From a virus, in the IMG/VR virus record IMGVR_UViG_3300035145_003810, positions 1 to 36,862 of that record: DNA of 36,862 bases; one strand, given 5' to 3'. Below are positions 7,139 to 36,862 of this stretch, piece by piece. Both the position numbers and the translations under genes were made by a program. Position 1 is the stretch's first letter. Each line of letters starts with the position of its first letter. The notes below the pieces were generated by a model. That model ran no database searches. It was not told the origin of the DNA and was given only the letters and a program-made list of their open reading frames with translations.

Positions 7139-7145
7139 TTAATAG

Positions 7146-7174: not shown

Positions 7175-7206
7175 AGTTTTATATCAAATGAAAAGGAAAC
7201 TATATC

Positions 7207-8284: not shown

Positions 8285-8286
8285 AT

Positions 8287-8655
8287 TTGCTACCATATAC
8301 TTTAATATATACAATAGCGCATCTTGGTGGTGCGTTATTGTTTCAATTTACTGGTAATCAGTATTACTTATTAATTAACAGCGCTCTATTGGGTTGGTCA
8401 ATGCTAATGCTTTTACAAATTACGGCATTAGTCATTAGCCCACAATACGATATAGAACTTGAAGTTGATAATGGAACTCCATTACAATTTAAACTAATGC
8501 TTTCAATCGCAAGTATACTTTCTGTGTGGTTATTATATCGTGAAGGTTGGGGTTTTTATGCAGGCTTTTGTACAGTTTATATCGTTGCTACCCTTGGTGC
8601 GTTGCTTATACAAATACTTGGAATTGATATGTCCAAAGAAAGCGATGAAGAATGA
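8287..8655 (+). CDS. Multi-pass membrane protein, TTG start
   Basis: A 122-residue protein starting at TTG 8287 (GAGG at 8274-8277). There are about four hydrophobic segments: residues 6-20, 27-52, 69-84 and 89-112. Between them lies an acidic loop (QYDIELEVDNGTPLQ) and the C-terminus is acidic (MSKESDEE). It overlaps the next gene by four bases (ATGA). Phage inner-membrane proteins of this size include holins and superinfection-exclusion proteins, but I see no specific motif. Its position, after another small membrane protein and away from any endolysin, does not settle this. Confidence 0.75.
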   Translation: MLPYTLIYTIAHLGGALLFQFTGNQYYLLINSALLGWSMLMLLQITALVISPQYDIELEVDNGTPLQFKLMLSIASILSVWLLYREGWGFYAGFCTVYIVATLGALLIQILGIDMSKESDEE

Positions 8656-15990: not shown

Positions 15991-16013
15991 TTATTCACCT
16001 TGTTAATAATATA

Positions 16014-16547
16014 TTAGCTTGTAGGTATACCAGTCGCGCCTTCAACTCTCCACATATCGTATTGGAAGGTTACGCTAAACTCTTCAATCGTATCTTGTTG
16101 TTGCCAATCCATTGTAATACCTTCAATGGCTGTTGGGAACATTCCTTCAAATACGTAAGTTCTTAGCGAGTCTCCACTTTTGCTAAACTGTGTAATAATA
16201 CCCGTTGACTTATAGTCTTGCGGCAAACCGCGAATGTTAGAATCATGGCTGTTAATTGAATTTGACCACGCTTCCATTGCATTACGGATTGCAAAATCTT
16301 CGTCGTTGATAATTGTGACCGTCCAATCGGCAAAAGTTCTATCACCAGCATATTTGACTTCGCGACCAAAATATGGTACTACGTAACTACCAACCGTTGA
16401 CTCAGGAATTCCTGCTGAGCGAACCATGAAAGGCACTTTGAAGTCAGCACCCGGAACAACCGGGTTAGTGATTTGCACTTCGAATAGCGTAGGACGTGCA
16501 CCACCACCAACAAGCTCTGATTTGAACTGATTGATATTGAATGCCAT
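16014..16547 (-). CDS. 19: Tail tube protein (T4 gp19-like)
   Basis: A 177-residue protein that builds the inner tail tube through which DNA passes. It begins MAFNINQFKSELVGGGARPT and contains TLFEVQITNP, VPFMVRSAGIPESTVG, VPYFGREVKYAGDRTFADWTVTIINDEDFAIR and a C-terminal MDWQQQDTIEEFSVTFQYD strand pair, typical of tube proteins with a gpV-like beta-barrel fold. Length is close to T4 gp19 (163). It lies between sheath gp18 and portal gp20. ATG 16547 has AAAGGAG, and a late promoter variant is at 16570-16577. Confidence 0.93.
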   Translation of the reverse strand: MAFNINQFKSELVGGGARPTLFEVQITNPVVPGADFKVPFMVRSAGIPESTVGSYVVPYFGREVKYAGDRTFADWTVTIINDEDFAIRNAMEAWSNSINSHDSNIRGLPQDYKSTGIITQFSKSGDSLRTYVFEGMFPTAIEGITMDWQQQDTIEEFSVTFQYDMWRVEGATGIPTS

Positions 16548-16569
16548 TTTCTACTCTCCTTTTTAAATC

Positions 16570-16577
16570 TATTTATT
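16570..16577 (-). promoter_or_regulatory. Late promoter variant for the tail tube gene
   Basis: AATAAATA on the minus strand, one mismatch from TATAAATA, 22 bases before the tube start and overlapping the sheath stop. Confidence 0.6.
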
Positions 16578-18435
16578 AACTAATCTGACCAACAATTTCG
16601 TCAAACTCAATACCTGTTCTTGTTGCAACGAACGTTAGTTCAATTACGTTAATAGAACGTGCTGGTTTGATAAAGATGTTTGCACGGAATTTGTTTTGAT
16701 CTATGACTTCAGGAGTATTCACAGTTGAATCAGATACAACTCTAAAATCATTAATGCCACGTCTTCCTTGAATATCACGTAAGAAAGGTTCTACAATATT
16801 CTTAAATTGTGTCTGAGTAAACTCATCATTAAGTTCAAACAAGAACGATTCTGCAGCAGTAGCAATTGCTTTTTCCACTGCAATAAACAATCTACGAACA
16901 TTGATACGGTCAAACGCACTTGCAGTTCCTTGTCCTGTCTTATCACCAAACAACATAACTCCTTGACCAATCTGAGACATAACTGGGTTAATATCTGCTG
17001 AATACAATTGATCTCTTTGTGCTTTGCTTGGATTGAATGCTAGCTTAACAACATTCTTGATTAGACCTTTTCTAAAGCCTGCAGGTGATTCAAAAACCTC
17101 AACCCGTGAAGCCAAACCTGCCATATCTCCGTTTAGTGGTACATAACGGTATACATCGTTATATTTGTCGTAACGATATTTGTATCCGCTGTCCATAAAC
17201 CAATATGAGCTTGATTGGATTTTATTACGGTGTGCGATAACTTTAGTTAGTTTTGCATTTGTTTTTACTTCATTAACAACAGCTTCTTCTGAAGGTGATA
17301 CAAACATTACGCAGTCTTTTCTTACAGAAACAAGATTAGACAGAATGTAATTTGCTTTGTTTGCAGCATCGTCTGATTTACCAACCAATACGTGAGAAAT
17401 GTCAATTTCATTTGCATTTGCGAACGTATCGTATGCTGGTCCAATCATACCGAGAGTAACATTGTCTTCAGTTGCCGCAGCATCAGATCCACCAGTTAAA
17501 GATTCTGCTTCGTCTAATTCTGTATTTGCTGTACCGATTGGTTGTGTATTTGCAACAACAATCCAATTGGAGCTGTTCTCAATCATGGTTGCATAATAGT
17601 TTGTTCTGCCGTCATCAAGCTGTGCTGTATTTGACGTTGAAGCGTTTTCATATCTTTCAAGTACTTGACCCGTTGTACCACTTAGGGCACCATCATTATC
17701 AATAACAGCAACGTGGATATTACCGGCTGTCGGTGCACCAGAGAAAATGCTGTGATACTTCCAACGTTTTTCAATTGAAAGTTTATTAAGGTCGCTTTCG
17801 GCAAGAGTAAAGTTATTATCAAAAGCTGCAGTATATTCATAACCTACAGTCGTATTACCTTGTACGACTGGTACTTCAGCCCAAGCATTTAGTTGAAGAG
17901 ATTGATAACCAACATTATCATTACCGAAGCGGAGAAGATCGTTAGCATCAACTTCAGTAATTCTGTCAGCAGGTTCAACTTCAAAAACCAAAGCATTTGT
18001 ATTGAAAGCAAAGGTTTGTGGTACTGCGTTGTTTGAAATTTTATTCACTGGAATGGTGGCTACGGCAGCAACATCTGCTTCATAACCGGTGCTTGAACAC
18101 CAGGCAACGTCAAGGCTGTTGCCTAATTCGCCTGGATATTTTGCATTAAATACAGTTCCGGATGCTGTATTAGATGAGTCGTCGGCACGAGTAACGTATA
18201 GAGCGTTGGAATAAGCAAGGTAATCAGCTGCAACAAACCATGTTTCATAGTTTCCTGCATCTGGCTTGCCAAAACGGTCTACAAGTTGATCTTCCGATGA
18301 GATTAGTAGTGGTTCGTTCATTGGACCCCAGCGAAACAACCCAGCAATTGCTGCTGGAGGTGTTGCGATGGCCGGTACTGCCTGGGAAGCGTCCACTTCA
18401 CGAACAATAACAGAAGGACTTACGGAAAAAGCCAT
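16576..18435 (-). CDS. 18: Contractile tail sheath protein (T4 gp18-like)
   Basis: A 619-residue protein that forms the contractile sheath; contraction drives the tube into the host. The N-terminus (MAFSVSPSVIVREVDASQAV) and GPMNEPLLISSEDQLVDRFG, then the C-terminal RRLFIAVEKAIATAAESFLFE, TQTQFKNIVEPFLRDIQGRR and KPARSINVIELTFVATRTG match the sheath family; the C-terminal domain is the conserved one. Length compares with T4 (659). The middle third (about 150-330) is less conserved and faces outward in T4. ATG 18435 has AAGGAG, and a perfect late promoter lies at 18485-18492. Confidence 0.95.
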   Translation of the reverse strand: MAFSVSPSVIVREVDASQAVPAIATPPAAIAGLFRWGPMNEPLLISSEDQLVDRFGKPDAGNYETWFVAADYLAYSNALYVTRADDSSNTASGTVFNAKYPGELGNSLDVAWCSSTGYEADVAAVATIPVNKISNNAVPQTFAFNTNALVFEVEPADRITEVDANDLLRFGNDNVGYQSLQLNAWAEVPVVQGNTTVGYEYTAAFDNNFTLAESDLNKLSIEKRWKYHSIFSGAPTAGNIHVAVIDNDGALSGTTGQVLERYENASTSNTAQLDDGRTNYYATMIENSSNWIVVANTQPIGTANTELDEAESLTGGSDAAATEDNVTLGMIGPAYDTFANANEIDISHVLVGKSDDAANKANYILSNLVSVRKDCVMFVSPSEEAVVNEVKTNAKLTKVIAHRNKIQSSSYWFMDSGYKYRYDKYNDVYRYVPLNGDMAGLASRVEVFESPAGFRKGLIKNVVKLAFNPSKAQRDQLYSADINPVMSQIGQGVMLFGDKTGQGTASAFDRINVRRLFIAVEKAIATAAESFLFELNDEFTQTQFKNIVEPFLRDIQGRRGINDFRVVSDSTVNTPEVIDQNKFRANIFIKPARSINVIELTFVATRTGIEFDEIVGQIS

Positions 18436-18484
18436 ATTTTTCTCCTTTATATATTAGAAACGCGTTTAGTCATATCACTGTTTC

Positions 18485-18492
18485 TATTTATA
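18485..18492 (-). promoter_or_regulatory. T4-type late promoter for the tail sheath gene
   Basis: A perfect TATAAATA on the minus strand, 49 bases before the sheath start, in the 76-base gap after the terminase stop. Confidence 0.85.
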
Positions 18493-18511
18493 AAATAACC
18501 GATCTGCAGTG

Positions 18512-20113
18512 TTACCGCAGTACTAAGCCATCATCTTCAAAATATTCTTCACCAGTATCTATGAAACCAAAAGGAAGTAACTCTTCTTCAATCTGTTCAT
18601 CTGTTTTCTGTCTTAGCTTCGCTAATGTGTTTATATCGGATAACTCTCTAAAATAGTCTTGACCTGATAGCCAAGCAAATAATACTAAATTCATCACAAG
18701 ATCATCGTGCGCGCCTGGTTCTGCCTCATAACTGTTTCCTTTCCGCGAGAAACGAGACAATTCTTGAATTGTGTTATAATCTCGTAAGAGTATTTGATCC
18801 TGCTCGACAAGCATTTTAAGCATTTGACAGCCTTGGGATTTTACGTTACGAGTTGTTCTAATTCCATTATCAAGACGTTTTCCACCAAATCCTGAAGATA
18901 TTCTCTTTCCTTTAGCCCCAGCATTTTCGGAATATAATAAGTTTTCATAACCAAGATCCATCAATAAAACATCAGATACTTGTTCGCCAATATCGTTAAT
19001 CTCGATAAGTACCGACGCCTCATTATACATGTTACCTATTCTATATATAATAGTAGCAAAATCAACTGGTGTAACGTAATTATCTCTGAACGTACACACT
19101 TGTTGATATGGCATTTCTGTTGTGTCTATTACAGTAAATGTTGAATAGTCTAATCCTTTACCTCTTGATACGTCAACGGTCATAATATATACTCTGTCTT
19201 CCATCGGTTTCAAGTATTGACATATTCCTTCAGATTCTAAAAGTGGTTTATCATATGCAAGCTGTTTTAATTTTGCACCATTAATCAAAGTACCGCTTGA
19301 TCCTAAAAACTGACAACAGTATTCTTGATTAAATTTTTCTTCATCATAATCAAGTGCCTCAAGAGTTTCTTGCTTCCATTTTTCATCTCGACCCGGCACG
19401 TCATCCCACATAACTTCAACATATTCGTAACCGTTAGTACCTTCTTTTGCGCCTTTACAGGTTTTCCAAAAATGGTTTAAACCGTTGGGAGTTGAAGTCA
19501 TTAGAAGTTTTGTTGATTCACCAGAAGAAATTGTAGGATATACTGATGCGAAAAATTCATCGTATCCTTCAATAAATGCAACCTCGTCAAGATACAGGAA
19601 GTTAACTGATTTACCACGAATTGCACTTGATGATGTTGTACCTGCAAGAACTTGGCATCCATTTTCTAGTGCAATGTTTCCTTTATTCCATTCTTCAATC
19701 CCTTGCTGTAACCATTTAGGTAAAGCTTCATATGCCAGTTTAACACGGGCCATAACTTCACGAGCGGCGTCTCCTTTGTTTGCAAGGATTGCTACAGTTT
19801 TAAATTCGTTAAATAAAACGTAATGAAGAATAACTGCCGTTGCAGTTGTTGTCTTACCTGACTGCCGCGCGGTAAGTACTGCAACACGCCTGTGATTAGA
19901 TATTTTGTCAACGATATCTTTTTGATAGTCATACATGTCAAATGGTACAAGACCTTTATCAACATGGACAATCTTAATATATGTTTTTGCAAAGTAAATA
20001 GGATCTTGGGAGCATTTCATATACTCCTGCATTAACTCAGGAGTCCATTCTATTTGTTCACCGACGCGTTTAAGATTTGTGTTACCTAAGTAACCTTTTA
20101 TCATTTCAAACAT
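18512..20113 (-). CDS. 17: Terminase large subunit (T4 gp17-like)
   Basis: A 533-residue packaging motor with an N-terminal ATPase and a C-terminal nuclease. Walker A is TARQSGKTT (about residues 81-89) and Walker B is NFLYLDE (Asp176, catalytic Glu177). The nuclease begins IMTVDVSRGKGLDYSTF, with metal-binding Asp314, and the acidic residues in IEINDIGEQ and PGAHDDLVMNLVL are in place. I prefer ATG 20113 to GTG 20125: AAAGGTG sits at a suitable distance before it, while it would overlap GTG 20125. The gene overlaps the small-subunit stop by 8 bases. All key motifs are intact; the length is near T4 (610) but shorter. Confidence 0.95.
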   Translation of the reverse strand: MFEMIKGYLGNTNLKRVGEQIEWTPELMQEYMKCSQDPIYFAKTYIKIVHVDKGLVPFDMYDYQKDIVDKISNHRRVAVLTARQSGKTTTATAVILHYVLFNEFKTVAILANKGDAAREVMARVKLAYEALPKWLQQGIEEWNKGNIALENGCQVLAGTTSSSAIRGKSVNFLYLDEVAFIEGYDEFFASVYPTISSGESTKLLMTSTPNGLNHFWKTCKGAKEGTNGYEYVEVMWDDVPGRDEKWKQETLEALDYDEEKFNQEYCCQFLGSSGTLINGAKLKQLAYDKPLLESEGICQYLKPMEDRVYIMTVDVSRGKGLDYSTFTVIDTTEMPYQQVCTFRDNYVTPVDFATIIYRIGNMYNEASVLIEINDIGEQVSDVLLMDLGYENLLYSENAGAKGKRISSGFGGKRLDNGIRTTRNVKSQGCQMLKMLVEQDQILLRDYNTIQELSRFSRKGNSYEAEPGAHDDLVMNLVLFAWLSGQDYFRELSDINTLAKLRQKTDEQIEEELLPFGFIDTGEEYFEDDGLVLR

Positions 20114-20543
20114 CGCCTTGTTCACCTTTCATCATTTTTAGTAATTCTGCTGTAGATAGAATAAGATTGTTATTTGTCACATTTGTTTCTTTCTTTACAC
20201 CAGATTGTTCATCTTGGGCAAATTTCTTTTTCGTAGAAATATCAACATAATCTTTGTTTGCGTCAAGTAAAGTTTTCATTAGTGTAGATACAACTTCAAA
20301 AGCACGAGGAGACTCAGATTGTTTAGCAATTTCAACCATTTCTTTAACGGCATCATCACCTAATTCAATAATATTTTTAACATTAGCCCGTGCTAATTCT
20401 ATATCATTTAGGTTTTCTTCCGCTTGTGAATTGACTTCGGCCGGAAGATTTTCATTTTCTTCAATTGGCACGATTTCCGTTTTTTCTTCAACTTCACTCA
20501 AAGGTCTAATACCTAATGCCTTTGAAATATGATCATCATTCAT
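20106..20543 (-). CDS. 16: Terminase small subunit (T4 gp16-like)
   Basis: A 145-residue protein that helps gp17 begin DNA packaging. It starts MNDDHISKALGIRPLSEVEE, the usual opening of gp16 in marine T4-like phages; an upstream in-frame TTG at 20561 is less likely because ATG 20543 begins one base after the preceding gp15 stop. The middle (ELARANVKNIIELGDDAVKE, AFEVVSTLMKTLLDANKDYV) is helical as in gp16 oligomers, and the end (LILSTAELLKMMKGEQGD) is typical. Length is near T4 gp16 (164). It lies between gp15 and gp17 as in T4. Confidence 0.9.
   Translation of the reverse strand: MNDDHISKALGIRPLSEVEEKTEIVPIEENENLPAEVNSQAEENLNDIELARANVKNIIELGDDAVKEMVEIAKQSESPRAFEVVSTLMKTLLDANKDYVDISTKKKFAQDEQSGVKKETNVTNNNLILSTAELLKMMKGEQGDV
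20123..20129 (-). promoter_or_regulatory. Ribosome site choosing the gp17 ATG start
   Basis: AAAGGTG on the minus strand, 9 bases before ATG 20113. It includes the alternative GTG 20125, which would then have no free ribosome site, so ATG 20113 is preferred. Confidence 0.55.
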
Positions 20544-20544
20544 T

Positions 20545-21357
20545 TTAGGTCTCTTCGTCAAAAACTGTTATAATACCCCAGTCGTCATCAAAATCAATTT
20601 GTGAATACGGTACTGTGTTTGCTAATACTGTTGTTGGTTCGTTGTTTGCAGTTAACCCAGGTTGAACCGTTACTTTTTCAACCAATGGCGTATTTACTGG
20701 AGTGTTTACTGCAAATTTAGAATCAACAAATTTAATAATTTTTTTCGTTCTTTCAGGTCCAAAATACCAACCTTTAAGAGTAAAGTTAAGAGTATATAGA
20801 ATTGCTCTTCTTTCTGTAAAATCACCTTCATATAAGTCTTCGTTAATTACTGAATTAAGAACTATTGCAATATCAATTGGATCTAAATCTTCAATTAGTT
20901 TTGCACCAACCGTATAATCTGGCTGGAAGAACGGTACGATTTGTTCCATAAGTTTTGATGCGTCTTCTTGATATTTTGTCATAATATACAAAGAAAAATC
21001 AAGGTTATATGGTGCAGGTGAATATACAAAACTTTTTGTATCGGATGAGTCCGTACCAGCTTTGTTTTTTATTAATCGTTGAGTTGTACCAACTTTACGT
21101 TCACCATCATATGTGATAGAAGTAATTTCAAAAGACAGCCTCGGCAATGTAATTGCAGAAGGCTGATTTAGATTTGGATCTTGTGTGATACGGGCAAGTA
21201 CTTTTTGAAACGGCGCATAAGACAAAGGTACGATTATTGATTGAACAAGAGTACCTGCATTGTCCGCACGTTCAATCTTTAACTGATTAAACAGTGTTCC
21301 AAATAGTGCAACATATTTCCTTGTCGTACCGTTATAAAAGTAATTCGCAATTGCCAT
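20545..21357 (-). CDS. 15: Tail terminator / sheath stabiliser (T4 gp15-like)
   Basis: A 270-residue protein that caps the finished tail and joins it to the head. Evidence is synteny (between gp14 and gp16) plus conserved gp15-type segments: MAIANYFYNGTTRKYVALFG, VPLSYAPFQKVLARI, LPRLSFEITSITYDGERK, PYNLDFSLYIMTKYQEDA and YTLNFTLKGWYFGP. Length is almost that of T4 gp15 (272). It follows gp14 by one base. ATG 21357 has a moderate ribosome site. The C-terminus (about 215-270) is more variable. Confidence 0.92.
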   Translation of the reverse strand: MAIANYFYNGTTRKYVALFGTLFNQLKIERADNAGTLVQSIIVPLSYAPFQKVLARITQDPNLNQPSAITLPRLSFEITSITYDGERKVGTTQRLIKNKAGTDSSDTKSFVYSPAPYNLDFSLYIMTKYQEDASKLMEQIVPFFQPDYTVGAKLIEDLDPIDIAIVLNSVINEDLYEGDFTERRAILYTLNFTLKGWYFGPERTKKIIKFVDSKFAVNTPVNTPLVEKVTVQPGLTANNEPTTVLANTVPYSQIDFDDDWGIITVFDEET

Positions 21358-21358
21358 C

Positions 21359-22045
21359 TTAATCGCCTATCGTTATGTTTTCGCTAAACGGATCAATTTC
21401 CGAGAAGTCAATAATTCCATCAGCTTCTGTTTCAAAGTATACGTTCTTAGCAATTGGATCTGTATTTGCAAGCTGTGTAAGAGTCGTAACAGGAGTTGTT
21501 GCAGTAGACGAAATATCAATTCCATCAAAGTATGTATCAATATTATCTCGACCTGTCTCAAACCGCTCGCCTGAGTATTCAAACAATTCACAACGCAAGT
21601 CGTATACTTGTAATGCACCAGTTTGATAAAATACTGACTCATGTTCAACGTGCATAATTTTAAAGATTTTTTCATTTAGTGGGAAGAATATTGCATCACC
21701 TTCAAGAGGTCTAACTTTAAGTTCGTTTTCACGAGTAGCAAATCTTTCAAATGTTCTATAAGCAACAGTAAAAGTAACTTGATCTCGGATTTGCAATCCA
21801 AATCTTGATAGGAAGTCACCTTCTCCTTCAAACCCATCTACGTTCTTAACATACATTTCCATTTCGTATGTTTCGTTAAATACGCTTATATCATCTTCAT
21901 TTAGGATTTGGTCTACGTTATTAAATGATCTCGAAATATAGATATTGTCAATACCGTACATGGCTATTGACTCAATGACAAGATCGTCAATTAAGTTTTG
22001 TTCATTAAAATTATCGTAGTTTTGAAAGAACGCATTTGTTGCCAT
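21359..22045 (-). CDS. 14: Neck protein (T4 gp14-like)
   Basis: A 228-residue head-completion protein that forms the neck with gp13. It is identified by place (gp13-gp14-gp15-gp16-gp17) and by gp14-type features: MATNAFFQNYDNFNEQNLIDDLVIESIAMYG, the IYISRSFNNVDQILNED segment, SRFGLQIRDQVTFTVAYRTFE, and the IFFPLNEKIFKIMHVEHE strand region. Length compares with 256 in T4. It begins three bases after the gp13 stop, so the neck genes are probably co-translated. Confidence 0.9.
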   Translation of the reverse strand: MATNAFFQNYDNFNEQNLIDDLVIESIAMYGIDNIYISRSFNNVDQILNEDDISVFNETYEMEMYVKNVDGFEGEGDFLSRFGLQIRDQVTFTVAYRTFERFATRENELKVRPLEGDAIFFPLNEKIFKIMHVEHESVFYQTGALQVYDLRCELFEYSGERFETGRDNIDTYFDGIDISSTATTPVTTLTQLANTDPIAKNVYFETEADGIIDFSEIDPFSENITIGD

Positions 22046-22048
22046 GGT

Positions 22049-22792
22049 TTATCCAATAAAGTTGTACGTAAGTGGTTGAAGATTTTGAATTGCATCTTCT
22101 TCCATTCGTTGACGATCCTCTCGAGCTTCTTGAAGTATTTGTTCTCCATTAAACGATACACCACCGACAAGCTGCATGTTAGTAAATTTGGTAAGGTTTA
22201 AACCCCATTGTTCTCTAACAAGAACTGCTGCATAATTCTGTAGCCAACGGTCGGCCCAAACATCTTCGTACAAATCTTCGTCTACAACATCATACGCTTC
22301 AATAATGATATAATTACCAACAACCCAGCTAGATTGATCTACGTCAACATATAATTTATTCACATGTTTGTTATAACGAATTAAAGCTTTGCCAACAAGT
22401 ATTTCTTGCATAAATTCAATATGCTGCATTGTCATATAGTAATGCTGTAAACTATAACTTGTTAAATCCGTGAGGTTGTTTAAAACAAATTGATACTGTA
22501 CGTTAAACATACCTGTCCCAGTTGAGATAGATGTATCAAAATCAAATACTCTTGATATACCTAACAACTTAGTTGGTAATGTAATATATCCGTTATCTTT
22601 ATCGGCTTGAGTAATTTGGTGTTTAAGATAAACAAGTTGTGAACCGTTATAGTGATAGTCTCTCCAATAGGAAATTGCCTCATCAACACGGTCGTCAACC
22701 TGTTCATCGGAGACGTTAATCTGAATAACTGGCGCTCCGATTTTTCTTAATATATGTTCTTTAAATTCGTCTCTTGTTGTTGGTTGTGCCAT
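22049..22792 (-). CDS. 13: Neck protein (T4 gp13-like)
   Basis: A 247-residue head-completion protein acting with gp14 at the neck. It opens TTRDEFKEHILRKIGAPVIQ and INVSDEQVDDRVDEAISYW, has SLQHYYMTMQHIEFMQEILVG and YEDVWADRWLQNYAAVLVREQWG, and ends in FTNMQLVGGVSFNGEQILQEAREDRQRMEED, all in the order of gp13 in this phage group. Length compares with 309 in T4. Its ATG 22792 overlaps the TAA of the preceding gene by one base (TAATG). Confidence 0.9.
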   Translation of the reverse strand: MAQPTTRDEFKEHILRKIGAPVIQINVSDEQVDDRVDEAISYWRDYHYNGSQLVYLKHQITQADKDNGYITLPTKLLGISRVFDFDTSISTGTGMFNVQYQFVLNNLTDLTSYSLQHYYMTMQHIEFMQEILVGKALIRYNKHVNKLYVDVDQSSWVVGNYIIIEAYDVVDEDLYEDVWADRWLQNYAAVLVREQWGLNLTKFTNMQLVGGVSFNGEQILQEAREDRQRMEEDAIQNLQPLTYNFIG

Positions 22793-24423: not shown

Positions 24424-24431
24424 TATTTATA
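24424..24431 (-). promoter_or_regulatory. T4-type late promoter after the accessory cassette
   Basis: A perfect TATAAATA on the minus strand, 38 bases before the start at 24385. It overlaps the stop of the nucleotidyltransferase-cupin gene (24427), so cassette and structural genes are joined very tightly. Confidence 0.8.
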
Positions 24432-25206
24432 TTGAGTCCCGTCTCTCAATATCGTCCTCAGATAATACGTTACCCATCCAAACTTCAATTACTTTAACTG
24501 GCCTGCTTCCTACATTTGTAGCTTTATGCCAAGTCTTTTGTGGAATATCAATACTATCCCCTGACCTATATACATTTGAAGTTTTGTATCCATTTGAAAA
24601 TTCTAAATTCATTTCAAGTTCGCCATCAACAATATGCCAATGTTCCGTACGAACAAAATGTCTTTGATCCGACAATGATTTACCTACATCAATTGAAAGC
24701 TCTTTAACTTTCCAATGACCGTTATTATCAAGGTTTCTATATTTACCCCACAATCGCTGAGTTTCAGGTTTGTCCCAGTTCTCAAGTAACCAAGAAGAGC
24801 TGTTCTTTTTATTATTACCGCCAACACCAAACATAAACACGATTTGGCCTTCTTCAATTAATTCTTTTGCATACTCAACTTCAGGTGTTGTACCTTTTTG
24901 ACGATCGCCGCCATTAGCAAAAATGATTTGGCTTGAAGGATATTCTGACCTTACTTTTCTAATTGCACCAACCGCAGTATCATCGCTATCGTCAAATTCA
25001 AACACTTCGTCAACAACTTTAAGTGCTTCTAATATTGCAATACGTTCTTCAATTGGCATAAACGGTCTTCCTTTTTTGCGTGTCAACCATTCATCACTGT
25101 TTGCACCAACCAAAAGTTTGTCGCCAAGTTTTTTCGCAGCTTTAAAATATTCAATATGACCTGAGTGAATTGGATCAAATCCGCCAGTAACTATAACTAT
25201 TCTCAA
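24427..25206 (-). CDS. Nucleotidyltransferase-cupin (PMI-like) fusion protein
   Basis: A 259-residue protein with two domains. The N-terminal half (about 1-145) is an HxGH cytidylyl/adenylyltransferase like HldE-C or TagD: GGFDPIHSGH (His14, His17), GRPFMPIEERIAILEALKVV, FANGGDRQKGTTPE, and NSSSWLLEN at the position of the final ISxTxx motif. The C-terminal half (about 160-259) is a cupin of the mannose-6-phosphate isomerase/ManC type II kind: EHWHIVDGELEMN, SIDIPQKTWHKATNVG and VIEVWMGNVLSEDDIERRDS. Together these would activate and isomerise a sugar phosphate. Start is TTG 25206, in a TTGA overlap with the AcpS stop, with GGAG in front. It is the last gene of the cassette. Substrate unknown. 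Confidence 0.83.
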   Translation of the reverse strand: MRIVIVTGGFDPIHSGHIEYFKAAKKLGDKLLVGANSDEWLTRKKGRPFMPIEERIAILEALKVVDEVFEFDDSDDTAVGAIRKVRSEYPSSQIIFANGGDRQKGTTPEVEYAKELIEEGQIVFMFGVGGNNKKNSSSWLLENWDKPETQRLWGKYRNLDNNGHWKVKELSIDVGKSLSDQRHFVRTEHWHIVDGELEMNLEFSNGYKTSNVYRSGDSIDIPQKTWHKATNVGSRPVKVIEVWMGNVLSEDDIERRDSI

Positions 25207-25553
25207 AACCTATTCTCCACTATAACAATTGCTGTAACACAATTATTTTCTTCAGTTAACGAAATATGTATATCAAAGAATTCTAATTCGTTGTTTTGTA
25301 ATTCTATATATGGCTTTTTACCATTTGACACATAAGTGATTTGATTAAAAGGTATCTTCCATCTATGACTTGTTGCTTTATATAAAGCTTCCTTGGTAGC
25401 CCAACACCTTGCTGCAAACGCCGCTCGTTTCCAAGACGATAAAGTTTCTAATTTTTCTATTTCTTTTATAGAAAATATATGGCCTGGGTTGTTTTTGTGT
25501 TTTTCAAAGTGTCTTGATATTTCTGTTGTGTCAATACCTAAACCTTCAATCAT
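25203..25553 (-). CDS. acpS: AcpS-type holo-ACP synthase (phosphopantetheinyl transferase)
   Basis: A 116-residue protein matching bacterial AcpS (about 120-130). It opens GLGIDTTEISR, with metal-binding Asp8, and has the second signature FAARCWATKEALYKA with Glu55 and Lys59; the IHISLTEENNCVTAIVIVE end matches the usual final strand. AcpS moves 4'-phosphopantetheine from CoA to a serine of an acyl carrier protein. All key residues look intact. It starts at ATG 25553 with an ATGA overlap on the preceding methyltransferase and ends in a TTGA overlap with the next gene. No carrier protein is visible in this window, so its target could be the host ACP or a phage protein elsewhere. I know of no common AcpS in T4-like phages. 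Confidence 0.87.
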   Translation of the reverse strand: MIEGLGIDTTEISRHFEKHKNNPGHIFSIKEIEKLETLSSWKRAAFAARCWATKEALYKATSHRWKIPFNQITYVSNGKKPYIELQNNELEFFDIHISLTEENNCVTAIVIVENRF

Positions 25554-27870: not shown

Positions 27871-28200
27871 CTACCAAGTAGGGTCCCGCGTTACCATTGT
27901 CATTTTGTTGATCTTGTTTTGTAAAGCGGTATTAATTCTTTCTTCGTGTTCTGCGTCAATAGCGCCTTGAACCCAACCTAAAACAATTTCTTCAGTAAGA
28001 TCATTAAGAGCAACAAAATCAGCAGCAGCGGTTTGTTCGGCTGTGAGTGTTGTTTTGCCTAAGTACTTTGCAACATTCCCACTTAGGTCTGTTGCAACTT
28101 TTCTCCAACTTACAAAAATCACGGCATCTTCAAGGGTATCCCCGTCACCATTGACTTGGCTTTTAGTTCCAAGTTTTAAGATTTCCCAATCGTATACCAT
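27871..28200 (-). CDS. Small virion-type protein, paralog A
   Basis: A 109-residue protein related to the gene just before it (28208-28600): both read [YTF]-x-W-[EK]-[IV]-x-x-L-K-x-x-x-Q-V-N, then G-x-T-L-x-x-A-V, a W, and a middle LGWVQ/LGWIQ helix. It opens MVYDWEILKLGTKSQVNGDG. Proteins with this pattern recur in T4-like marine phages next to fibre genes; role unknown. It ends with TRDPTW. It starts 7 bases after its paralog, so both are expressed together. Confidence 0.75.
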   Translation of the reverse strand: MVYDWEILKLGTKSQVNGDGDTLEDAVIFVSWRKVATDLSGNVAKYLGKTTLTAEQTAAADFVALNDLTEEIVLGWVQGAIDAEHEERINTALQNKINKMTMVTRDPTW

Positions 28201-28207: not shown

Positions 28208-28600
28208 TTACTCCTCGGACGGCAAAGCTGGAGTTGCGGAAGTACCATCGCCCCACGGCAATCCTGACTCATCAATTTCAGATTCATTTTCTATGTCGAT
28301 TTTCTTTTGAATTTCTCCATCAATATGTTTCTTATAAGATGCGTCATTATTGACTACGTTTTGAATCCACCCAAGAACATCGGCCTCAACAAGATCAGCG
28401 AAAGCTTTAAAAGATCCTTCAGGAACGTTTTCTGCTGAGAACGGCGTAGCTCCTGAAAACATACCGCTATCCCCGTCTTCGTTTGTACCTGTAACTTCCC
28501 AAAAAGTTTGAACGACCGCATTTGGCAAAGTAGCACCTTCGCTATTAACCTGGTCTCGAACTTTAAGGCTTGTTACTTTCCATTCATAAGTAAATGCCAT
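28208..28600 (-). CDS. Small virion-type protein, paralog B
   Basis: A 130-residue protein, paralog of 27871-28200 (shared start YEWKVTSLKVRDQVNSEGA then TLPNAVVQTFWEV; shared ADVLGWIQNVV). It adds an acidic, Pro/Ser/Gly-rich tail (about 108-130, GLPWGDGTSATPALPSEE) absent from paralog A. It lies 36 bases downstream of the giant fibre gene. It may be a virion protein or fibre accessory, by context. A late promoter variant (28638-28645) lies 37 bases before its start. Confidence 0.77.
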   Translation of the reverse strand: MAFTYEWKVTSLKVRDQVNSEGATLPNAVVQTFWEVTGTNEDGDSGMFSGATPFSAENVPEGSFKAFADLVEADVLGWIQNVVNNDASYKKHIDGEIQKKIDIENESEIDESGLPWGDGTSATPALPSEE

Positions 28601-28636: not shown

Positions 28637-31600
28637 TTATTTATCCATTAATTTATATACCAATTCTTGCAGTTTGTCAATCTGCTTTTGCTGTTCATCT
28701 AACTGATTTTGTTGTTTATTTATTGTTTCTTGCTGCTCTTTGATACCTTCAATAAGCAAGCCTACCATATTACCATAACGAACAGCTTTACGATCTTTTT
28801 GTGTTTTAAGATCTGTTGTTTCGTATACGGCTTCAGGTAAAACTTTTTCAACTTGTTGTGCAATTACACCAGTCTGATTACCTTCTTTATCAATATAGTT
28901 AAAAGTAATACCATCAAGGGTTTGGATTTTCTCAATAGCATCTTTAATAACTTCTATGTTTTCTTTCCAACGAATATCAGAATAGTTTGCAAAACCTGTA
29001 ACTTCGCCTTCTGTTTGAATTGTACCGTAAGCCTGAATTGCATTCATAACTGAAGTGCCGGCTGGGTTTTGATAATAAGTGGTATCGTTTGAGTCATAGA
29101 ATAATGGCGCACGTACTGAAGAACCGTCAAACAGTCCGTAATCACCACTTACGATTCTCATTCTCCAGGTTCCGCCGTTATTCAAAATACCAACGTTGTT
29201 ACTACTATCTGCGTAGAAGTAACCTCTAACGGTCCCGGCGTATTCATCACGCATACGAATCCAGTTTGCCGCGGTTCCGCCTGCTACGTTCCAACCGTCA
29301 TCATCATCAGAATAGAAGTGCTGTCCTGATGCTTGGTTATAAATACCTTCACCTGAGTTATCGTTACGGAACCAGTTACGAGCATAGAATTCGTTAGCAC
29401 GAACACTAGTACCGAAATTAGATCCGCCTGCAGGATCCAAATAATAAGTTGTATCGTTTTGGTCATAGAAAATTGGTGCACGGAACGATCCACGGGCTTC
29501 AAAATAACCAGATCTTGTACGACCTTCCCAAGTACCGTTATAATACAAATAAGTAATATAATCTTCATCGGCATAAAGAATTGCTTCGCCGTTATCATGG
29601 TACAATGACATAATAGATCCATCATCGTCCCAATAAATTCGCCCACAATATGTATTAGAATCACGGAATCTAACCTCGCCGTGGTCAGAGTTATTTGAAC
29701 GAATACTTAACGTGTCAGCGTCGTCATCGTAAATATCCCAACCATCATTAAATTGAAGGAAGTTAAGATCAATTTGGTTCATACGAGAAGTTGATGCCGG
29801 ATCGGTATAATATGCCGAGTCGTTTGAGTCATAATAACGGCCTGCATATAATGAGCCACCGCTAGTGCTGTTCACATCAAGCATTGGAACGGTTCTCCAT
29901 GCACTGAATGAACTACCCCAAGTATTTCTAAATCTTAAGTTACCAATAGGACCACCACACATTTGCCAACCATAACGGTTAGAACCGTTAGTATAGTGAT
30001 ATGCTTGAACACCAACCCAGTGAGATGTACCTGAAGGTTGGTTTGCTGGGTTTGACCATGTATCAAAGAATCCTGAGCCCCAGTTACCAACAGTGTTCAG
30101 ATCAATAGTACCCCAGCCTACTGCGCCTGTCCAATAGTCTGAGTTAGAAGTAATTCGTGGTCTTGCAGCATAATATTCCTTACTGCTTCTTGTGTGTCCT
30201 GGAAGCTGCATATAAGCCATGGTTTCCGGTTGGACGCCACGGAATCTCGTATCATTGGTGCTAGCGCCATTGAAGCGGTAAGCTGTATTATTTGTGTCAT
30301 AGAAGATTTGCCCACGAACCGAACTACCATCAAACAGTCCGTAATCACCGCCTACAATACGCATTCTCCAAGAACCGCCAGAGTTTAAGATACCAACATT
30401 GTTTCCGTTATCTGCATAAACGTAACCACGAACTGTTCCACCGTATTCATCACGGAAACGAATACCGTTTGCAGCAGAACCACCAGCAACGTTCCAATAA
30501 TCATCGTTATCAGAATACCAATGTTGACCTGTTCCTTGGTTGTAAAGTCCTTCGCCAGACTGGTCGTTACGGAACCAATCACGAGCATAGATGTTAGTAG
30601 CACGCAAACCAGTGTTAAAGTTAGAGAAACTTGCCGGATCTACGTAATAACCAGTGTTGTTTGTATCGTAGAAAATTGGTGCACGGAACGATGATGACGC
30701 ATATGAGTTACCATCTGCCATTGCTTGGAAGTACCAACCTGAGATACCACCAGTAGCAGCACCGTGTTGACCTACATAGAAACCTGTTGTATTTGAATCA
30801 TTATTGTTATTTGAGTCAAGGTTAATGAACACATCATGATAAGAGTTAATACGAATATCATCAGATATACCACCGCCGTTGTCACGAGACGTAAAGCCGT
30901 GATAATCAGAATCGTTACCATACATTGTAATAAAGTCACCACGATCGCGCATATTAAGCCTGTCAAGTGTGACTGTAACCATGCTTGAGGTACCGTTAGG
31001 ATTTGTATAATAACCTGTATCATTTGAGTCATAGAAGATTGGAGCTCTTAAAGATGCGCCAGCTTGCAAGTTATTATTAACATAAACGTTGCTGCCACCT
31101 AATGGGTCTGAACCATTGTTGATAGACATAACCTGTGTAGCCATGTCATAATCGGTATAGAAACGCATACCTTGGTAACCGGAGTTTGCACCAAACTTAA
31201 GACCAGTGTGGAATGCAATCCTTAGATCTGGATACGGGTTAGACCATGCGCCTGACTCACGGAAAATTGCGTAAGCAGTAGATTTTGTTGGGTGGAAATA
31301 AACACCGCGTCCGTCGTCGGTTGCAACCGAGTCATCAAATTGGATATAATCATCAACGACAAGTGTATTAATAAGTGAAGAACCTGCAGGATTTACATAG
31401 AAATTAGTATCGTTACGGTCGTACATAATTGGAGTATCAAGACGTGAGTTAATTAGTGTTTGACCATTACCTCTAATAATCATGTTCCAATCACCACCAA
31501 CACCACCGTCACGGAACGAAATATCTTCACCGCTTGATGTTGCAATAATTAAGTGTGCATCATTGGTATCTGTAACTTGTATGAACCCGCGTTGGTTTTG

Positions 31601-34600
31601 TGTTGTTGCTGCCTGCAAAGTAATAATAGATCCGCTTTGCATAAACAAGCCATTGTCTATTTGAACCTGCGACATTTTTGATGTGCCGTTAAAGTTACCA
31701 TAGTAGGCAGTATTATCAGCATCATAATAAATGCTCGCATAAAAGTTTTCTTGAACGTTTACGCCGTATACCGCAATTGAGCTAAATGCTGAATAAGCTG
31801 TTGTAGATCCAAAAGTTTGTTGCCATAGGCGCATACCACGCCCACTTTTATTGAACATAAGTAAGTTATCGTTACCACCTGAAGCATCTGTGTAAGATCT
31901 TAGGTGTAAATAATCTGCGTATGGTGATGTGTTATTATTGTTCCAAGATGTGAAGCCAAATTTTAATTCACCGGCAGTATCTTCTGATGGAGATATAGTT
32001 CTATTATCACGAGATTTTAACGCATCGGAATATCCGTTAACGCCAGGTGTGGTAATTGCATTATCAACAGTAAGATTTAATAGTCTCGCGTCTACATTTG
32101 GATCAACAAAATACGCACTATTGTTTCTGTCTGTAATACTATTTACATAAGCAATTCCGTCAACAGTTATACCATCAGATTTTGTTTCAAGCTTCATTGT
32201 ACCATTGTGCATAAGCTCAACTTCAGCGTTTTGTCTAAAGATTGCAGCCCATTCATTGTTTGTATCATTATAGATACCAGACACGGCAGCACCTGATGAC
32301 ATGAATACCCAATCATCATTGATTGCATATCCTGCATAACCATTTGTATTACCTTGAACTCTTATAGATCCGTAGTCGCCTGACACAGTGTCAATATAAT
32401 AAGTTGTACCAACTAACTGATAACGACCTGCTCTTACTGTTTCAAAAATAGATAGCCCGTTTGGATCTACGTAATAAGCGGCATCATCAGCGTCAATAAA
32501 TTGTGTTGCCGTGACAGTACTACCAAAAGTACCTGTAGTGCCAACATCAAGTGCGGCACCGATTGTCATATTACCGCTACTATCCGTAAATGTACTTGAT
32601 GTAGCAAAATACAAAACACCTGGATCGTTTGCATGATCCATTTCAAACATCGTCTGGCCACCTGCAACCATATGCACATGATCGTTTCTATATCTTAAAT
32701 AAGTATTCGTATCTCCGTTGTGATACAAATATTCATTAATATAAACGTTGTTTAAAATTGTATTTGAAGCCGGGTCAACATAATAATTGGTATCGTTAGC
32801 ATCAATAAATCTTTGTGCTGTAACATATCTTCCAACATCCAAGTCACCATTTGAACCCATTGTTGCACGGATAACTTGTGTTGCCCCAATCCCAGTTGTA
32901 AATTGAAGATTACCACCTGAGTTGGTTGTTATATCATCTGGTGATTCAAAGATACGCCACGCGCTACCACCTTTCCAATACAAACCTTCATTTGGACCAG
33001 GATCGTTAAATGTAATGTTGTTAACGTCATTAATATCGCCGTTTGTAAAGTTCCAAGTACCTGCAAGTTTACCGCCTGTAGCAGGATCCATATAATAAGT
33101 AGTATTATCTTTATCGTAAATTTTCTTGATATATAATTCGTTACCTGTAATATCGCCAGTCGCAACGATAGGACCATCAACATCAAGATCTTGAGTTTGA
33201 AGATTTGATAATACGTTGGTTCTTTTGAGTAAAGGTGGGCCGTAAGCACGTAAAGCACCGCCCGTAGAATAGTTCATCAATAGTACAAGACGAATATAAC
33301 GTACACCTAAACCATCTGAACCGTTAAATGGTGTGTGGCTTGTTGGGATTGTAGTGTGGCCTGAATATACTGTCCAACTTGTGCTTGTAACGTTTGTTCC
33401 GTTTACAACAAAATACTGAATACCATCGTTAGTTGCAATTGGGTTTTTGTCTTTATCATATCTACGAATACCCATATAGACAACGCCGCCAGATCCTGAG
33501 ATATATTTTACAGCAATTTCACCGTAGATTTCTTCTCCTGGCTCAACTGGGATATAGTCTGAGTCAAATGTTCTGTACCCATTTGTTTGTAAATGCCAAC
33601 CTGCCGCAAATGGTCCGTCGCCATTTTCTACATATTCGTTTGTATCTGAAGTTGCTCCATTTTCAGCACCTTGCATTGGTTGAATAACTCGCTTATCCCA
33701 ATATTCTGATGCGTCAAATAACAATTGGTCTGCAAGACCTGCGCCGTATGTTTTAAGCAAGCCGACATCTTCATTACCACCATTAAGGGCAAGGCTGCCA
33801 AAAATACCTGCACCGTATGCTTGAATATCCCCGGCTTCGTTAAACCAAAATCTTTCTCCGATACCGTTAAATTCAAATGATACAGCAGATAATGAGTTAC
33901 GAGTAATGTGTTTAAACCAAGGATAATTTGGATCGGCTCCGCTGTTACGGAAACCAATCATATATTCTGTATTATGATGCAAAGTAAACGGATAAGTAGT
34001 ACCTGCCTGTAACGCAGACTGATTACCAATATTTAATGCCTTTAACCTTGACTGATCGTCACCGTGAATATAGAAAGAGTTATCATTAACGTCCATAAAG
34101 ATAGGAGACTCAATTTTATTCGTCGCAACAACTTTACCATTTCCGGTTTCAAATTCTTTAGTGCCATCGTAATAAAGTTCAACAGTCCCATTACGATCGC
34201 CGTATATAGCCCATTCATTATCTTGATCGTTAAAGATACCCCAATTTGTTGTATTAGCAACAAAACCCCAATCAGTATTAATAACATAGCCTGCCATTCC
34301 GCCTGTATCGCCTTCAACACGGATTGAGCCATAGTTGCCGGCCGCGGAGTCAATAAAGGTTGCGGTTGAGTCAATCTCAAGTTTCTTAACTTGTACGATA
34401 TTAAGATTTGAATTACTACTAGGATCTAAATACCAAGAGGTGTTATCTTTATCATAATAGATAGGAGAACGGATTGAAGTTTCATGAGAAATAAAGCTTG
34501 CATTTAAATCTGTGTGGAATGCGCCATCTGTATAGAATTTAAATTTATCATCGGAGTTGAACCACATTGCTCCACTCTCAACACCAATTGTATAATCATT

Positions 34601-36862
34601 ACCATTGGCGACAGTTGGGAACAAGTTAATTCTTGCAGATGTTACTGCATCTGTTGCGGTAGGCGCACCTACGTTCAAATTATCAAAGTCAAGTTTACGG
34701 AACTTTGAAGTTCCTGCAAAATCACCGTAATAATCGGTATCCGCCCAATCATAATAGATATTAAAGAATGCGTTATCATTGGCATCATAAGCATATATTC
34801 CGCCATTAAATTCAGTTCTTTTATTAAAATAAAACTTTGCTCTGTCAGTTATAAATTGAGAATAGTCAGTTGTTTTTGAACCGATCTCAAGAGTACCTGT
34901 TGGTGTTGCAAAAACGTGAGAGTTTGATGAATTTGGATTCCAATAATAATTTTGATTTGCTTGATCGTATACAGCTGGTGCACGAACATTTTGAGTAAAC
35001 TCAGCATAAGTATTCTCGAGGTGTAACTTAATCCCACCGTTAAGTTCAACATCAAACTGATCGTTTGCTGGGAAACCAAACTTTGAATCTGTATCACCAT
35101 TATGAGAAACATAATCGTCAAGACTAATGGATGCCATAATTGAAGTGCCGTTTGGATCAACTTCATAATTTGAATCATCACCGTCAATGAATTTAGAACC
35201 AGTGAGTGTTCCTGTAGTAATGATATTTTTATTGTTGCGAACTTTCATGTCGTTCGCATTATCCATATACCAACCACCACCTTGACCAAAGCCAAGTTCA
35301 TTGTTTTTAAAGAATGATGCAGTACTACGTCCTACTACATAAGCATCGTCATTACTGTTTAATTGAACTGATCCGTTTACGTGTAACTTACTATCAGTAT
35401 TAGAGCCGATAATCGGTGTCATATCACCTTGTGTATAAGCGGGTGATTGATCTCCAACAACTGTGACAGCCGTATTTGCATTTACAGAAAATGCAATGTT
35501 TGCGCTCTGATCTCCAATATTCCAAGACCCATCTTGTTGCATAATAATATATGCATCACCTGCGTTTGATCCTGACAAGTAGTAAATATCAGACCCATCA
35601 ATTTGAGCATTAATAAATCTATTACTTGCTGAATATGGATTAGCACCAGCATCAATGCGGTTCAAAGTGAAAAGAGGTTTTCCTCCGTTATTGCCTGCCA
35701 CTTGTATTGACGGGTTTCCTGTTCCGCCACCCCAAGTATAAGGTTGAAGAGTAACGCCGCCTGTACCTGATGTCAATCCATCAAGATCACCATCAACGCC
35801 ATTCCTAATTACACCTGCGACAGCCAAAGCAGTATTTGCACCGGTTTCTCCAAGGCTTAAGAACCTTGTAGTTCCAGCATCAGGATAATAAGTTGAGGCT
35901 CTTATAGGAAGGAACGATTGGTTAACAGAGGTTGATCCTGTTGTACCAAATATAAATCTGTTCACACCGCCAGTAGCAAGAGCAAGTACGTCAGCGGAAG
36001 ATCTGTACATACCTGTTGTTGTACCGTCTTTAAACGAAAATCCTGGGAATGATGAAGTACCATCGTCACCTAATACTTGCCCGCCTAATACTGCGGATAC
36101 GCCAGAAGATCCAAACGGATCAACATAATAAGAAGTATTTGCCGAGTCAACAAAACGTGGAGCAACAGAATCAACTGAAGCTGTTACCGCTCCATCGGTT
36201 ACTGTTAATCTTGCCGCGCCACCGGTTTCAACTACGAAAGTATCATTTGCTGAAAAACCAAATCTTGTATCAGTATCACCATTATGAGTAATATAATCAT
36301 CAAGCAAAACGGTTGCAGTAAATTGAACACCGTTATTAGAAACATTAAAACGAGAAACTCCGCCTGTTACGAAGTGTATTTCGTCTTCTGCCGGGAAGTT
36401 AATATAAGTATCAGTATCGCCTCTGTGAACAAGGGAACCTTCAAGCAGAATTGTATTTAGTTCTGAATTACCAGCAGGATCTAAGAAATAGTTTATATCA
36501 TTTGAGTCATAATATGCAGGAGCTTTAATTATTACACCTGAAACGTTTTCCGTTAAACCAACATTCCAACTTTCTATATTGTTGATGTATGTTCTAACAG
36601 TGTTAGATGAAAATGTAATATATTCAGTATTAGCAGTACCAGTTCCACCGATTGAACCTGCCAAGCGAATGTTGTTCATTTCAGATATGCCAGCAAAGTC
36701 ACCATAATAAGAATTATTGTCGGCATCAATAAAGACTTTAGCAACAGTATTAGCTGATACGATCCAATTATTGTTTGCGTCTAATTTTGCACCGTATGCA
36801 AGTGTTTGGTCAAGAAAACCAATTTCGCCGTTATTTGAATAGAGTGTACCATTATTACCAAC
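28637..36862 (-). CDS. Giant tail fibre with S74 intramolecular chaperone, 5' end missing
   Basis: The frame is open without a stop to the right edge, so at least 2741 residues; the first ATG inside the window (36679) is not the true start because codons from 36680 to 36862 continue the same repeat pattern (FIDADNNSYYGDFAGISEM). About 20 copies of a 22-residue unit with core D-x-N-[DN]-T-x-Y-Y-x-D-P-x-G-x-S occur, 60-200 residues apart, plus a HNGDT module about four times. The last 114 residues are peptidase S74: SDIRWKENIEVI starts with the self-cleaving Ser (codon 28979-28981) and the Lys of the dyad, followed by GVIAQQVEKVLPEAVYE and a coiled coil at the end. It releases a trimer-folding chaperone. 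Role: adsorption fibre. No internal stops or frameshifts. Confidence 0.9.
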   Translation of the reverse strand, partial: VGNNGTLYSNNGEIGFLDQTLAYGAKLDANNNWIVSANTVAKVFIDADNNSYYGDFAGISEMNNIRLAGSIGGTGTANTEYITFSSNTVRTYINNIESWNVGLTENVSGVIIKAPAYYDSNDINYFLDPAGNSELNTILLEGSLVHRGDTDTYINFPAEDEIHFVTGGVSRFNVSNNGVQFTATVLLDDYITHNGDTDTRFGFSANDTFVVETGGAARLTVTDGAVTASVDSVAPRFVDSANTSYYVDPFGSSGVSAVLGGQVLGDDGTSSFPGFSFKDGTTTGMYRSSADVLALATGGVNRFIFGTTGSTSVNQSFLPIRASTYYPDAGTTRFLSLGETGANTALAVAGVIRNGVDGDLDGLTSGTGGVTLQPYTWGGGTGNPSIQVAGNNGGKPLFTLNRIDAGANPYSASNRFINAQIDGSDIYYLSGSNAGDAYIIMQQDGSWNIGDQSANIAFSVNANTAVTVVGDQSPAYTQGDMTPIIGSNTDSKLHVNGSVQLNSNDDAYVVGRSTASFFKNNELGFGQGGGWYMDNANDMKVRNNKNIITTGTLTGSKFIDGDDSNYEVDPNGTSIMASISLDDYVSHNGDTDSKFGFPANDQFDVELNGGIKLHLENTYAEFTQNVRAPAVYDQANQNYYWNPNSSNSHVFATPTGTLEIGSKTTDYSQFITDRAKFYFNKRTEFNGGIYAYDANDNAFFNIYYDWADTDYYGDFAGTSKFRKLDFDNLNVGAPTATDAVTSARINLFPTVANGNDYTIGVESGAMWFNSDDKFKFYTDGAFHTDLNASFISHETSIRSPIYYDKDNTSWYLDPSSNSNLNIVQVKKLEIDSTATFIDSAAGNYGSIRVEGDTGGMAGYVINTDWGFVANTTNWGIFNDQDNEWAIYGDRNGTVELYYDGTKEFETGNGKVVATNKIESPIFMDVNDNSFYIHGDDQSRLKALNIGNQSALQAGTTYPFTLHHNTEYMIGFRNSGADPNYPWFKHITRNSLSAVSFEFNGIGERFWFNEAGDIQAYGAGIFGSLALNGGNEDVGLLKTYGAGLADQLLFDASEYWDKRVIQPMQGAENGATSDTNEYVENGDGPFAAGWHLQTNGYRTFDSDYIPVEPGEEIYGEIAVKYISGSGGVVYMGIRRYDKDKNPIATNDGIQYFVVNGTNVTSTSWTVYSGHTTIPTSHTPFNGSDGLGVRYIRLVLLMNYSTGGALRAYGPPLLKRTNVLSNLQTQDLDVDGPIVATGDITGNELYIKKIYDKDNTTYYMDPATGGKLAGTWNFTNGDINDVNNITFNDPGPNEGLYWKGGSAWRIFESPDDITTNSGGNLQFTTGIGATQVIRATMGSNGDLDVGRYVTAQRFIDANDTNYYVDPASNTILNNVYINEYLYHNGDTNTYLRYRNDHVHMVAGGQTMFEMDHANDPGVLYFATSSTFTDSSGNMTIGAALDVGTTGTFGSTVTATQFIDADDAAYYVDPNGLSIFETVRAGRYQLVGTTYYIDTVSGDYGSIRVQGNTNGYAGYAINDDWVFMSSGAAVSGIYNDTNNEWAAIFRQNAEVELMHNGTMKLETKSDGITVDGIAYVNSITDRNNSAYFVDPNVDARLLNLTVDNAITTPGVNGYSDALKSRDNRTISPSEDTAGELKFGFTSWNNNNTSPYADYLHLRSYTDASGGNDNLLMFNKSGRGMRLWQQTFGSTTAYSAFSSIAVYGVNVQENFYASIYYDADNTAYYGNFNGTSKMSQVQIDNGLFMQSGSIITLQAATTQNQRGFIQVTDTNDAHLIIATSSGEDISFRDGGVGGDWNMIIRGNGQTLINSRLDTPIMYDRNDTNFYVNPAGSSLINTLVVDDYIQFDDSVATDDGRGVYFHPTKSTAYAIFRESGAWSNPYPDLRIAFHTGLKFGANSGYQGMRFYTDYDMATQVMSINNGSDPLGGSNVYVNNNLQAGASLRAPIFYDSNDTGYYTNPNGTSSMVTVTLDRLNMRDRGDFITMYGNDSDYHGFTSRDNGGGISDDIRINSYHDVFINLDSNNNNDSNTTGFYVGQHGAATGGISGWYFQAMADGNSYASSSFRAPIFYDTNNTGYYVDPASFSNFNTGLRATNIYARDWFRNDQSGEGLYNQGTGQHWYSDNDDYWNVAGGSAANGIRFRDEYGGTVRGYVYADNGNNVGILNSGGSWRMRIVGGDYGLFDGSSVRGQIFYDTNNTAYRFNGASTNDTRFRGVQPETMAYMQLPGHTRSSKEYYAARPRITSNSDYWTGAVGWGTIDLNTVGNWGSGFFDTWSNPANQPSGTSHWVGVQAYHYTNGSNRYGWQMCGGPIGNLRFRNTWGSSFSAWRTVPMLDVNSTSGGSLYAGRYYDSNDSAYYTDPASTSRMNQIDLNFLQFNDGWDIYDDDADTLSIRSNNSDHGEVRFRDSNTYCGRIYWDDDGSIMSLYHDNGEAILYADEDYITYLYYNGTWEGRTRSGYFEARGSFRAPIFYDQNDTTYYLDPAGGSNFGTSVRANEFYARNWFRNDNSGEGIYNQASGQHFYSDDDDGWNVAGGTAANWIRMRDEYAGTVRGYFYADSSNNVGILNNGGTWRMRIVSGDYGLFDGSSVRAPLFYDSNDTTYYQNPAGTSVMNAIQAYGTIQTEGEVTGFANYSDIRWKENIEVIKDAIEKIQTLDGITFNYIDKEGNQTGVIAQQVEKVLPEAVYETTDLKTQKDRKAVRYGNMVGLLIEGIKEQQETINKQQNQLDEQQKQIDKLQELVYKLMDK
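28638..28645 (-). promoter_or_regulatory. Late promoter variant at the fibre stop
   Basis: GATAAATA on the minus strand, one mismatch from TATAAATA, inside the last codons and stop of the giant fibre gene and 37 bases before paralog B. May drive 28600 down to 24427. Confidence 0.5.
29081..29490 (-). repeat. Segmental duplication in the fibre, C-terminal copy
   Basis: About 136 residues beginning at FRAPIFYDQND and ending at DYGLFDGSSVRAP, similar to the block at about 30281-30690. Boundaries are approximate. The shared middle includes YNQ-x-x-GQH-x-YSD-x-DD. Confidence 0.85.
30281..30690 (-). repeat. Segmental duplication in the fibre, N-terminal copy
   Basis: The second copy of the block at about 29081-29490, about 1.2 kb apart. 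It begins FRAPIFYDTNN and ends DYGLFDGSSVRGQ. Boundaries are approximate. Confidence 0.85.
32180..32410 (-). repeat. Fibre module repeat (GSIRV-NEWA), copy 2
   Basis: About 75 residues with DYGSIRVQGNTNGYAGYAIN, IYNDTNNEWAAIF and VELMHNGTMKLETK, related to the block at about 34130-34375. More diverged than the 29/30-kb duplication. Confidence 0.7.
34130..34375 (-). repeat. Fibre module repeat (GSIRV-NEWA), copy 1
   Basis: About 80 residues with NYGSIRVEGDTGGMAGYVIN, IFNDQDNEWAIYGDRNG and VELYYDGTKEFETG; related to about 32180-32410. Confidence 0.7.

Follow-up and report, generated by a model that had tools for sequence, protein, structure and literature searches.

A repeated 27-residue unit as a probable joint for module exchange in the giant S74 fibre of an uncultivated T4-like phage

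S74 fibres, mosaic tail fibres and knob domains are already known. In the long tail fibres of T4-type phages, the exchanged variable segments of the gp37 and gp38 adhesins are flanked by short conserved boxes or glycine-rich motifs, which differ in both motif and scale from the 27-residue unit described here. How fibre parts can be exchanged without breaking the trimeric fold has usually been inferred case by case. Domain exchange between phages is an ongoing process in tail fibres generally (PMC10684548); the portions of that work considered here describe no common connector, whereas in the fibres analysed below a sequence-defined unit marks the exchange points. The MAT family of Bdellovibrio consists of long trimeric S74 fibres with diverse adhesive tips and beta-helical stalks (PMC10769870). 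Like the present fibre, these proteins are long and carry an S74 domain, and related units occur in contigs of the Bdellovibrio group (L265 and L267). A signal peptide followed by a conserved beta-rich domain of ~130 aa characterizes the family. However, the parts of that report considered here deal with variety at the tip and mention no recurring joint that introduces one module after another, and the MAT capping-loop consensus given there, V-G-G/N-pi-X-X-P-X-X-X-L, is a different motif (PMC10769870). In pelagimyophages and cyanomyophages, finally, the host recognition cluster is a hypervariable fibre island near the neck genes, accompanied by cell-surface sugar genes (PMC7029224). The fibre studied here occupies the same setting, near T4-like neck genes, but the variation described in those phages lies between genes, whereas here it lies within one gene (PMC7029224).

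The DNA analysed (hereafter the window) is the entire IMG/VR record IMGVR_UViG_3300035145_003810, 36,862 bases from an uncultivated T4-like myovirus. Homologues of the neck, tail-sheath-stabiliser, sheath and portal genes lie beside the fibre gene on the minus strand, in T4 order, and together with TerL they occupy 14467-22792; TerL (18512-20125) is 58% identical to that of Sinorhizobium phages phiN3 and phiM12. The giant fibre ORF (28637-36862, minus strand) runs for 2741 codons with zero stops and continues past the end of the contig. As the record is complete, the true start must lie outside the window and cannot be the ATG at 36679. Another record, IMGVR_UViG_3300035145_003763 (L016), finishes with 127 nt identical to the window edge (36736-36862), and this exact overlap is probably the trace of a de Bruijn assembler, k=127, between adjacent contigs. 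The joined frame encodes a fibre of 3052 amino acids that begins MASKKFVVKNGLL, without an obvious signal peptide, and has its first unit at residue 351; the window thus holds the C-terminal 2741 of about 3052 residues, in keeping with the first-pass annotation, which had put the protein at no fewer than 2741. The inner end of the overlap falls about 10 nt into unit 1, which would suit a fork of the assembly graph at this point; no other IMG/VR contigs with the 127-nt overlap, which might have carried an alternative fibre branch at unit 1, were found. On L016, the cluster just before the giant fibre comprises a collagen-like S74 fibre (3-1991), a 1450-aa fibre gene bearing two 27-residue units (2431-6783) and a 736-aa fibre-like gene (6816-9026).

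We consider it likely that this ORF encodes a giant host-recognition fibre of about 20 modules, each opened by a standard joint at which relatives cross over. An HMM built from the copies of the repeat gives a count of exactly 20 units in the window fibre, each 27 residues long (consensus RAPIFYDSNDTAYYVDPAGTSILNTVL), matching the roughly 20 copies throughout the protein counted at first inspection. The unit had then been given 22 residues; the repeat is real and contains a 22-residue core, but the full unit extends to 27. From unit 1 onwards, the HMM places the copies, all on the minus strand, at 36665-36745, 36446-36526, 36086-36166, 35123-35203 and 34904-34984 (units 1 to 5); 34688-34768, 34391-34471, 34031-34111, 33053-33133 and 32741-32821 (units 6 to 10); 32432-32512, 32069-32149, 31661-31741, 31358-31438 and 30968-31048 (units 11 to 15); and 30605-30685, 30236-30316, 29768-29848, 29402-29482 and 29033-29113 (units 16 to 20), the last reading RAPLFYDSNDTTYYQNPAGTSVMNAIQ. 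Their spacing ranges from 72 to 326 residues. In a leave-one-out analysis 19 of the 20 units scored above the maximum of 200 shuffles; the exception was the most divergent copy (unit 8, at residue 918), which still reaches 31.7 bits with the HMM.

The unit was characterized further in a set of 156 non-redundant unit-bearing fibres (155 relatives plus the window fibre) with 1848 units. Its best conserved positions are D7 (97%), Y13 and Y14 (about 85%), Y6 (84%), S21 (78%) and T11 (76%). Spacings in these fibres peak at 26, 72-73, 100, 103, 121-122, 125, 129 and 156 residues, a pattern that reuse of a restricted range of module types would produce. No Pfam model covers the unit, and its profile, run against PDB sequences, returned chance matches only (E >=0.16). 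In AlphaFold models, which are monomers of moderate confidence (mean pLDDT 65-67), the unit appears as a short hairpin leading into a loop; in unit 18 the strands span model residues 286-288 and 291-296, with a pLDDT of about 70-80.

At its C-terminal end the fibre carries an S74 intramolecular chaperone (28640-28981, minus strand), identified by its PF13884 match, its predicted fold and its Ser-Lys dyad. The Pfam match covers residues 2628-2680 (E=2.8e-15; 56.8 bits against a cut-off of 22), and the predicted fold matches that of the MyRF ICA (7dc3; TM 0.72 by target length) as well as 3gw6. The Ser-Lys dyad noticed in SDIRWK at the outset is indeed intact: Ser2628 and Lys2633 (Ser-x4-Lys) are both present and are invariant in a 40-sequence alignment. 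The stretch from Ser2628 to the end measures 114 residues, the length originally proposed, and, judging from sequence and model, cleavage before Ser2628 would release these 114 residues. A C-terminal intramolecular chaperone of the same family (PF13884) and the same predicted fold terminates T5 pb1 and the K1F endosialidase. The active residues of the pb1 chaperone are the same, Ser1264 and Lys1269, five residues apart as in the window fibre (PMC4690869). The position of the T5 accessory Arg, 14 residues before the Ser, is occupied here by Thr2614. At 1396 residues pb1 is also far shorter than the present fibre, whose 20 unit-module repeats bring it to about 3052.

The modules between the units are of diverse kinds. 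The one between units 17 and 18 (29849-30235, minus strand) is, on the evidence of fold comparison, a knob domain resembling phage K gp144 and the R-pyocin fibres: its model matches 5m9f (Z 9.8 over 80 residues) and 6cl5/6cl6, the R-pyocin fibres (Z 8.4). The modules after unit 16 (30317-30604, minus strand; predicted to consist of successive short beta strands) and after unit 19 (29114-29401, minus strand) are 78% identical and represent an internal duplication. One module gave weak fold matches to T4 gp34, PHROG matches were confined to the C-terminus of the fibre, and a PDB search with the A1 and A2 module profiles yielded nothing meaningful.

Homologous modules are arranged in differing orders in different fibres, mostly distally. 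When 1595 modules were sorted into 262 classes, 55 classes had at least five members, and for 52 of these 55 three or more different neighbours were seen on one of the two sides. Module H (121 spacing), for instance, lies near the tip in the window fibre and in L012, but in L009 and L011 it immediately follows module C. The shuffling of modules suggested by the first-pass annotation is borne out distally, but it is not uniform: exchanges are concentrated in the distal two thirds of the fibre, while the long modules of the proximal core stay in a fixed order. Module F, a 299-aa part of this core (33134-34030, minus strand), holds its place across relatives, and in all 40 copies its left neighbour is of one kind. 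A point against exchange at the unit is that in L009 one proximal module has lost homology in its first 100 residues, with no unit at the border.

Comparison of fibre modules among related genomes supports the view that module exchange between phages takes place nearly always at the 27-residue connector or beside it. We defined a strict switch as a DNA match of at least 88% identity giving way to non-homologous protein, and assigned it to a unit when it fell within 45 nt of the unit midpoint. By this measure 68% of 316 switches lie inside a unit, against 22.4% expected and a maximum of 32% in 1000 rotations of the unit positions. Counting linked breaks once left the share at 67.9% (of 134), compared with 11.5% after rotation (maximum 20.9%), and the proportion was stable under stricter identity and length. 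The roughly 32% of strict switches beyond 45 nt on either side of the midpoint are nearly all within 100 nt; altogether, the zone reaching 100 nt to either side of a unit centre takes in 96% of switches and 49% of the sequence. Unfiltered DNA match ends showed a mild enrichment at units (31% against 22%), because most such ends reflect gradual divergence, a difficulty that requiring non-homology past the break resolved. Chimeric junctions, resembling one identifiable relative on the left and another on the right, were in a unit in 17 of 20 cases. None of the strict switches involves the window's own fibre, so that exchange in that fibre is argued from its module order and from its relatives.

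Protein comparisons lead to the same picture. With the units left unmasked, matches were uninformative because the conserved unit glues neighbouring modules together. With units masked, 46.7% of homology ends lie within eight residues of a unit edge, as opposed to 13.7% when the positions were rotated and 22.5% when the masks were moved by 50 residues; the mismatch between unit and module boundaries that would have told against a joint was not seen. In unit pairs that have only the upstream module in common, extra likeness is restricted to residues 1-14, and in pairs that have only the downstream module in common it covers residues 15-27 as well. The first 14 residues hence follow the upstream module, and beyond about residue 15 only the downstream one counts, which places the join around the Tyr-Tyr core. 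The DNA switches, the chimeric junctions, the ends of protein homology and the tracking of the unit halves all support the early suggestion that the unit is a joint between interchangeable modules.

Crossovers centre on those codons of the unit that are best conserved, which is also what one would expect if the unit were recombination-promoting DNA, conserved as a stretch of homology or as a recombinase site, and a few junctions do have 14-23 identical nucleotides in common. We regard this explanation as unlikely. The conservation is at the protein level (D7 97%, Y13/Y14 about 85%), random pairs of units are only 50% identical in DNA with a median exact run of 7 nt, and the parents of junctions do no better. 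A homology-driven crossover through long identical DNA is unsupported, exact shared DNA at junctions having a median of 8 nt as against 7 nt in random unit pairs. Since junction identity is no longer than that of random units, structural tolerance is favoured over DNA homology, and we infer that the crossovers owe their position to such tolerance and not to a dedicated recombinase. The same figures bear on the idea that module switches are chimeras created by metagenome assembly at a repeat. In favour of this idea, every module comparison draws on metagenomic contigs, and close to unit 1 the window breaks off in a 127-nt overlap of the graph type. Yet units are 81 nt long and average 50% identity, exact runs at junctions (median 8, maximum 23 nt) are far below the usual assembly k-mers, and the switches recur in many samples, all of which makes an assembly artefact highly improbable.

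A further reading, possible though in our opinion doubtful, takes the unit for no more than a recurring piece of the S74 fibre stalk, such as a trimerising beta-hairpin collar, with exchange occurring there simply because domains end there. Units stand back to back at a spacing of 26 residues in 90 pairs, which indicates that the unit can build a stalk without intervening modules, and spacings of 26, 31 or 37 residues are found in bacterial S74 and other proteins. A mere stalk element fits less well with the fact that the unit opens almost every module of any class, that its two halves follow different modules and that junctions centre on its core. The distinction between stalk and joint is partly a matter of emphasis, as a collar may double as a tolerated join.

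We picture the giant host-recognition fibre as some 20 modules in a row with an S74 chaperone, presumably self-cleaving, at the end. Every module is opened by the 27-residue unit, predicted to fold as a small beta-hairpin (FYD-SNDT-YY) and a DPAGTS loop. As a standard structural joint, the unit would allow modules of very different kind and length to succeed one another in the fibre, which is presumably trimeric, with the hairpins packing accordingly. Because the unit would tolerate varied modules, recombinants joining two fibres inside it should stay foldable, and relatives could therefore exchange, duplicate and reorder whole modules by crossover in the unit. Such exchange plausibly alters host range. 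It is tempting to go further and view the unit as a universal connector of giant phage fibres and some bacterial S74 proteins, whereby any module may follow any other, with the junction in the connector, without a recombinase or programmed inversion; to us this broader proposition stands about an even chance of being right.

The openly accessible papers searched yielded no description of the unit motif or of a sequence-defined joint marking the exchange points of giant fibres. That one sequence marks these points in more than 100 giant fibres means that domain borders become readable from sequence. The unit would also help in annotating fibre proteins of great length, most of which lack annotation over much of their sequence, and built-in modularity via a standard joint is a directly testable hypothesis.

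Coding sequence for the unit was found in at least 555 viral stretches and, in a survey of one genome for each of 84,980 bacterial and archaeal species, at 27 loci. The latter (L248-L274) belong to Patescibacteria, the Bdellovibrio group, a Pseudomonas plasmid and others; many have units in tandem, 26, 31 or 37 residues apart, and in several the units precede an S74 domain. Among isolated phages, only Synechococcus phage DSL-LC03 was found to have the same fibre arrangement, with a fibre of 3161 residues and a DUF7936-like gene beside it.

In the window, two DUF7936 genes (28208-28600, adjoining the fibre, and 27871-28200, both on the minus strand) follow the fibre gene, and 97 of 119 related fibres have a DUF7936-like gene downstream within 1.5 kb. 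This recurrence makes the family a candidate for a fibre-associated role, as an assembly or tip protein. Between the fibre and neck genes lie a 4'-phosphopantetheinyl transferase (ACPS) gene (25203-25553, minus strand) and a gene for a fused cytidylyltransferase/cupin (24427-25206, minus strand), heptose adenylyltransferase-like with a mannose-6-phosphate isomerase C-terminal domain; both possibly serve in modification of the host surface.
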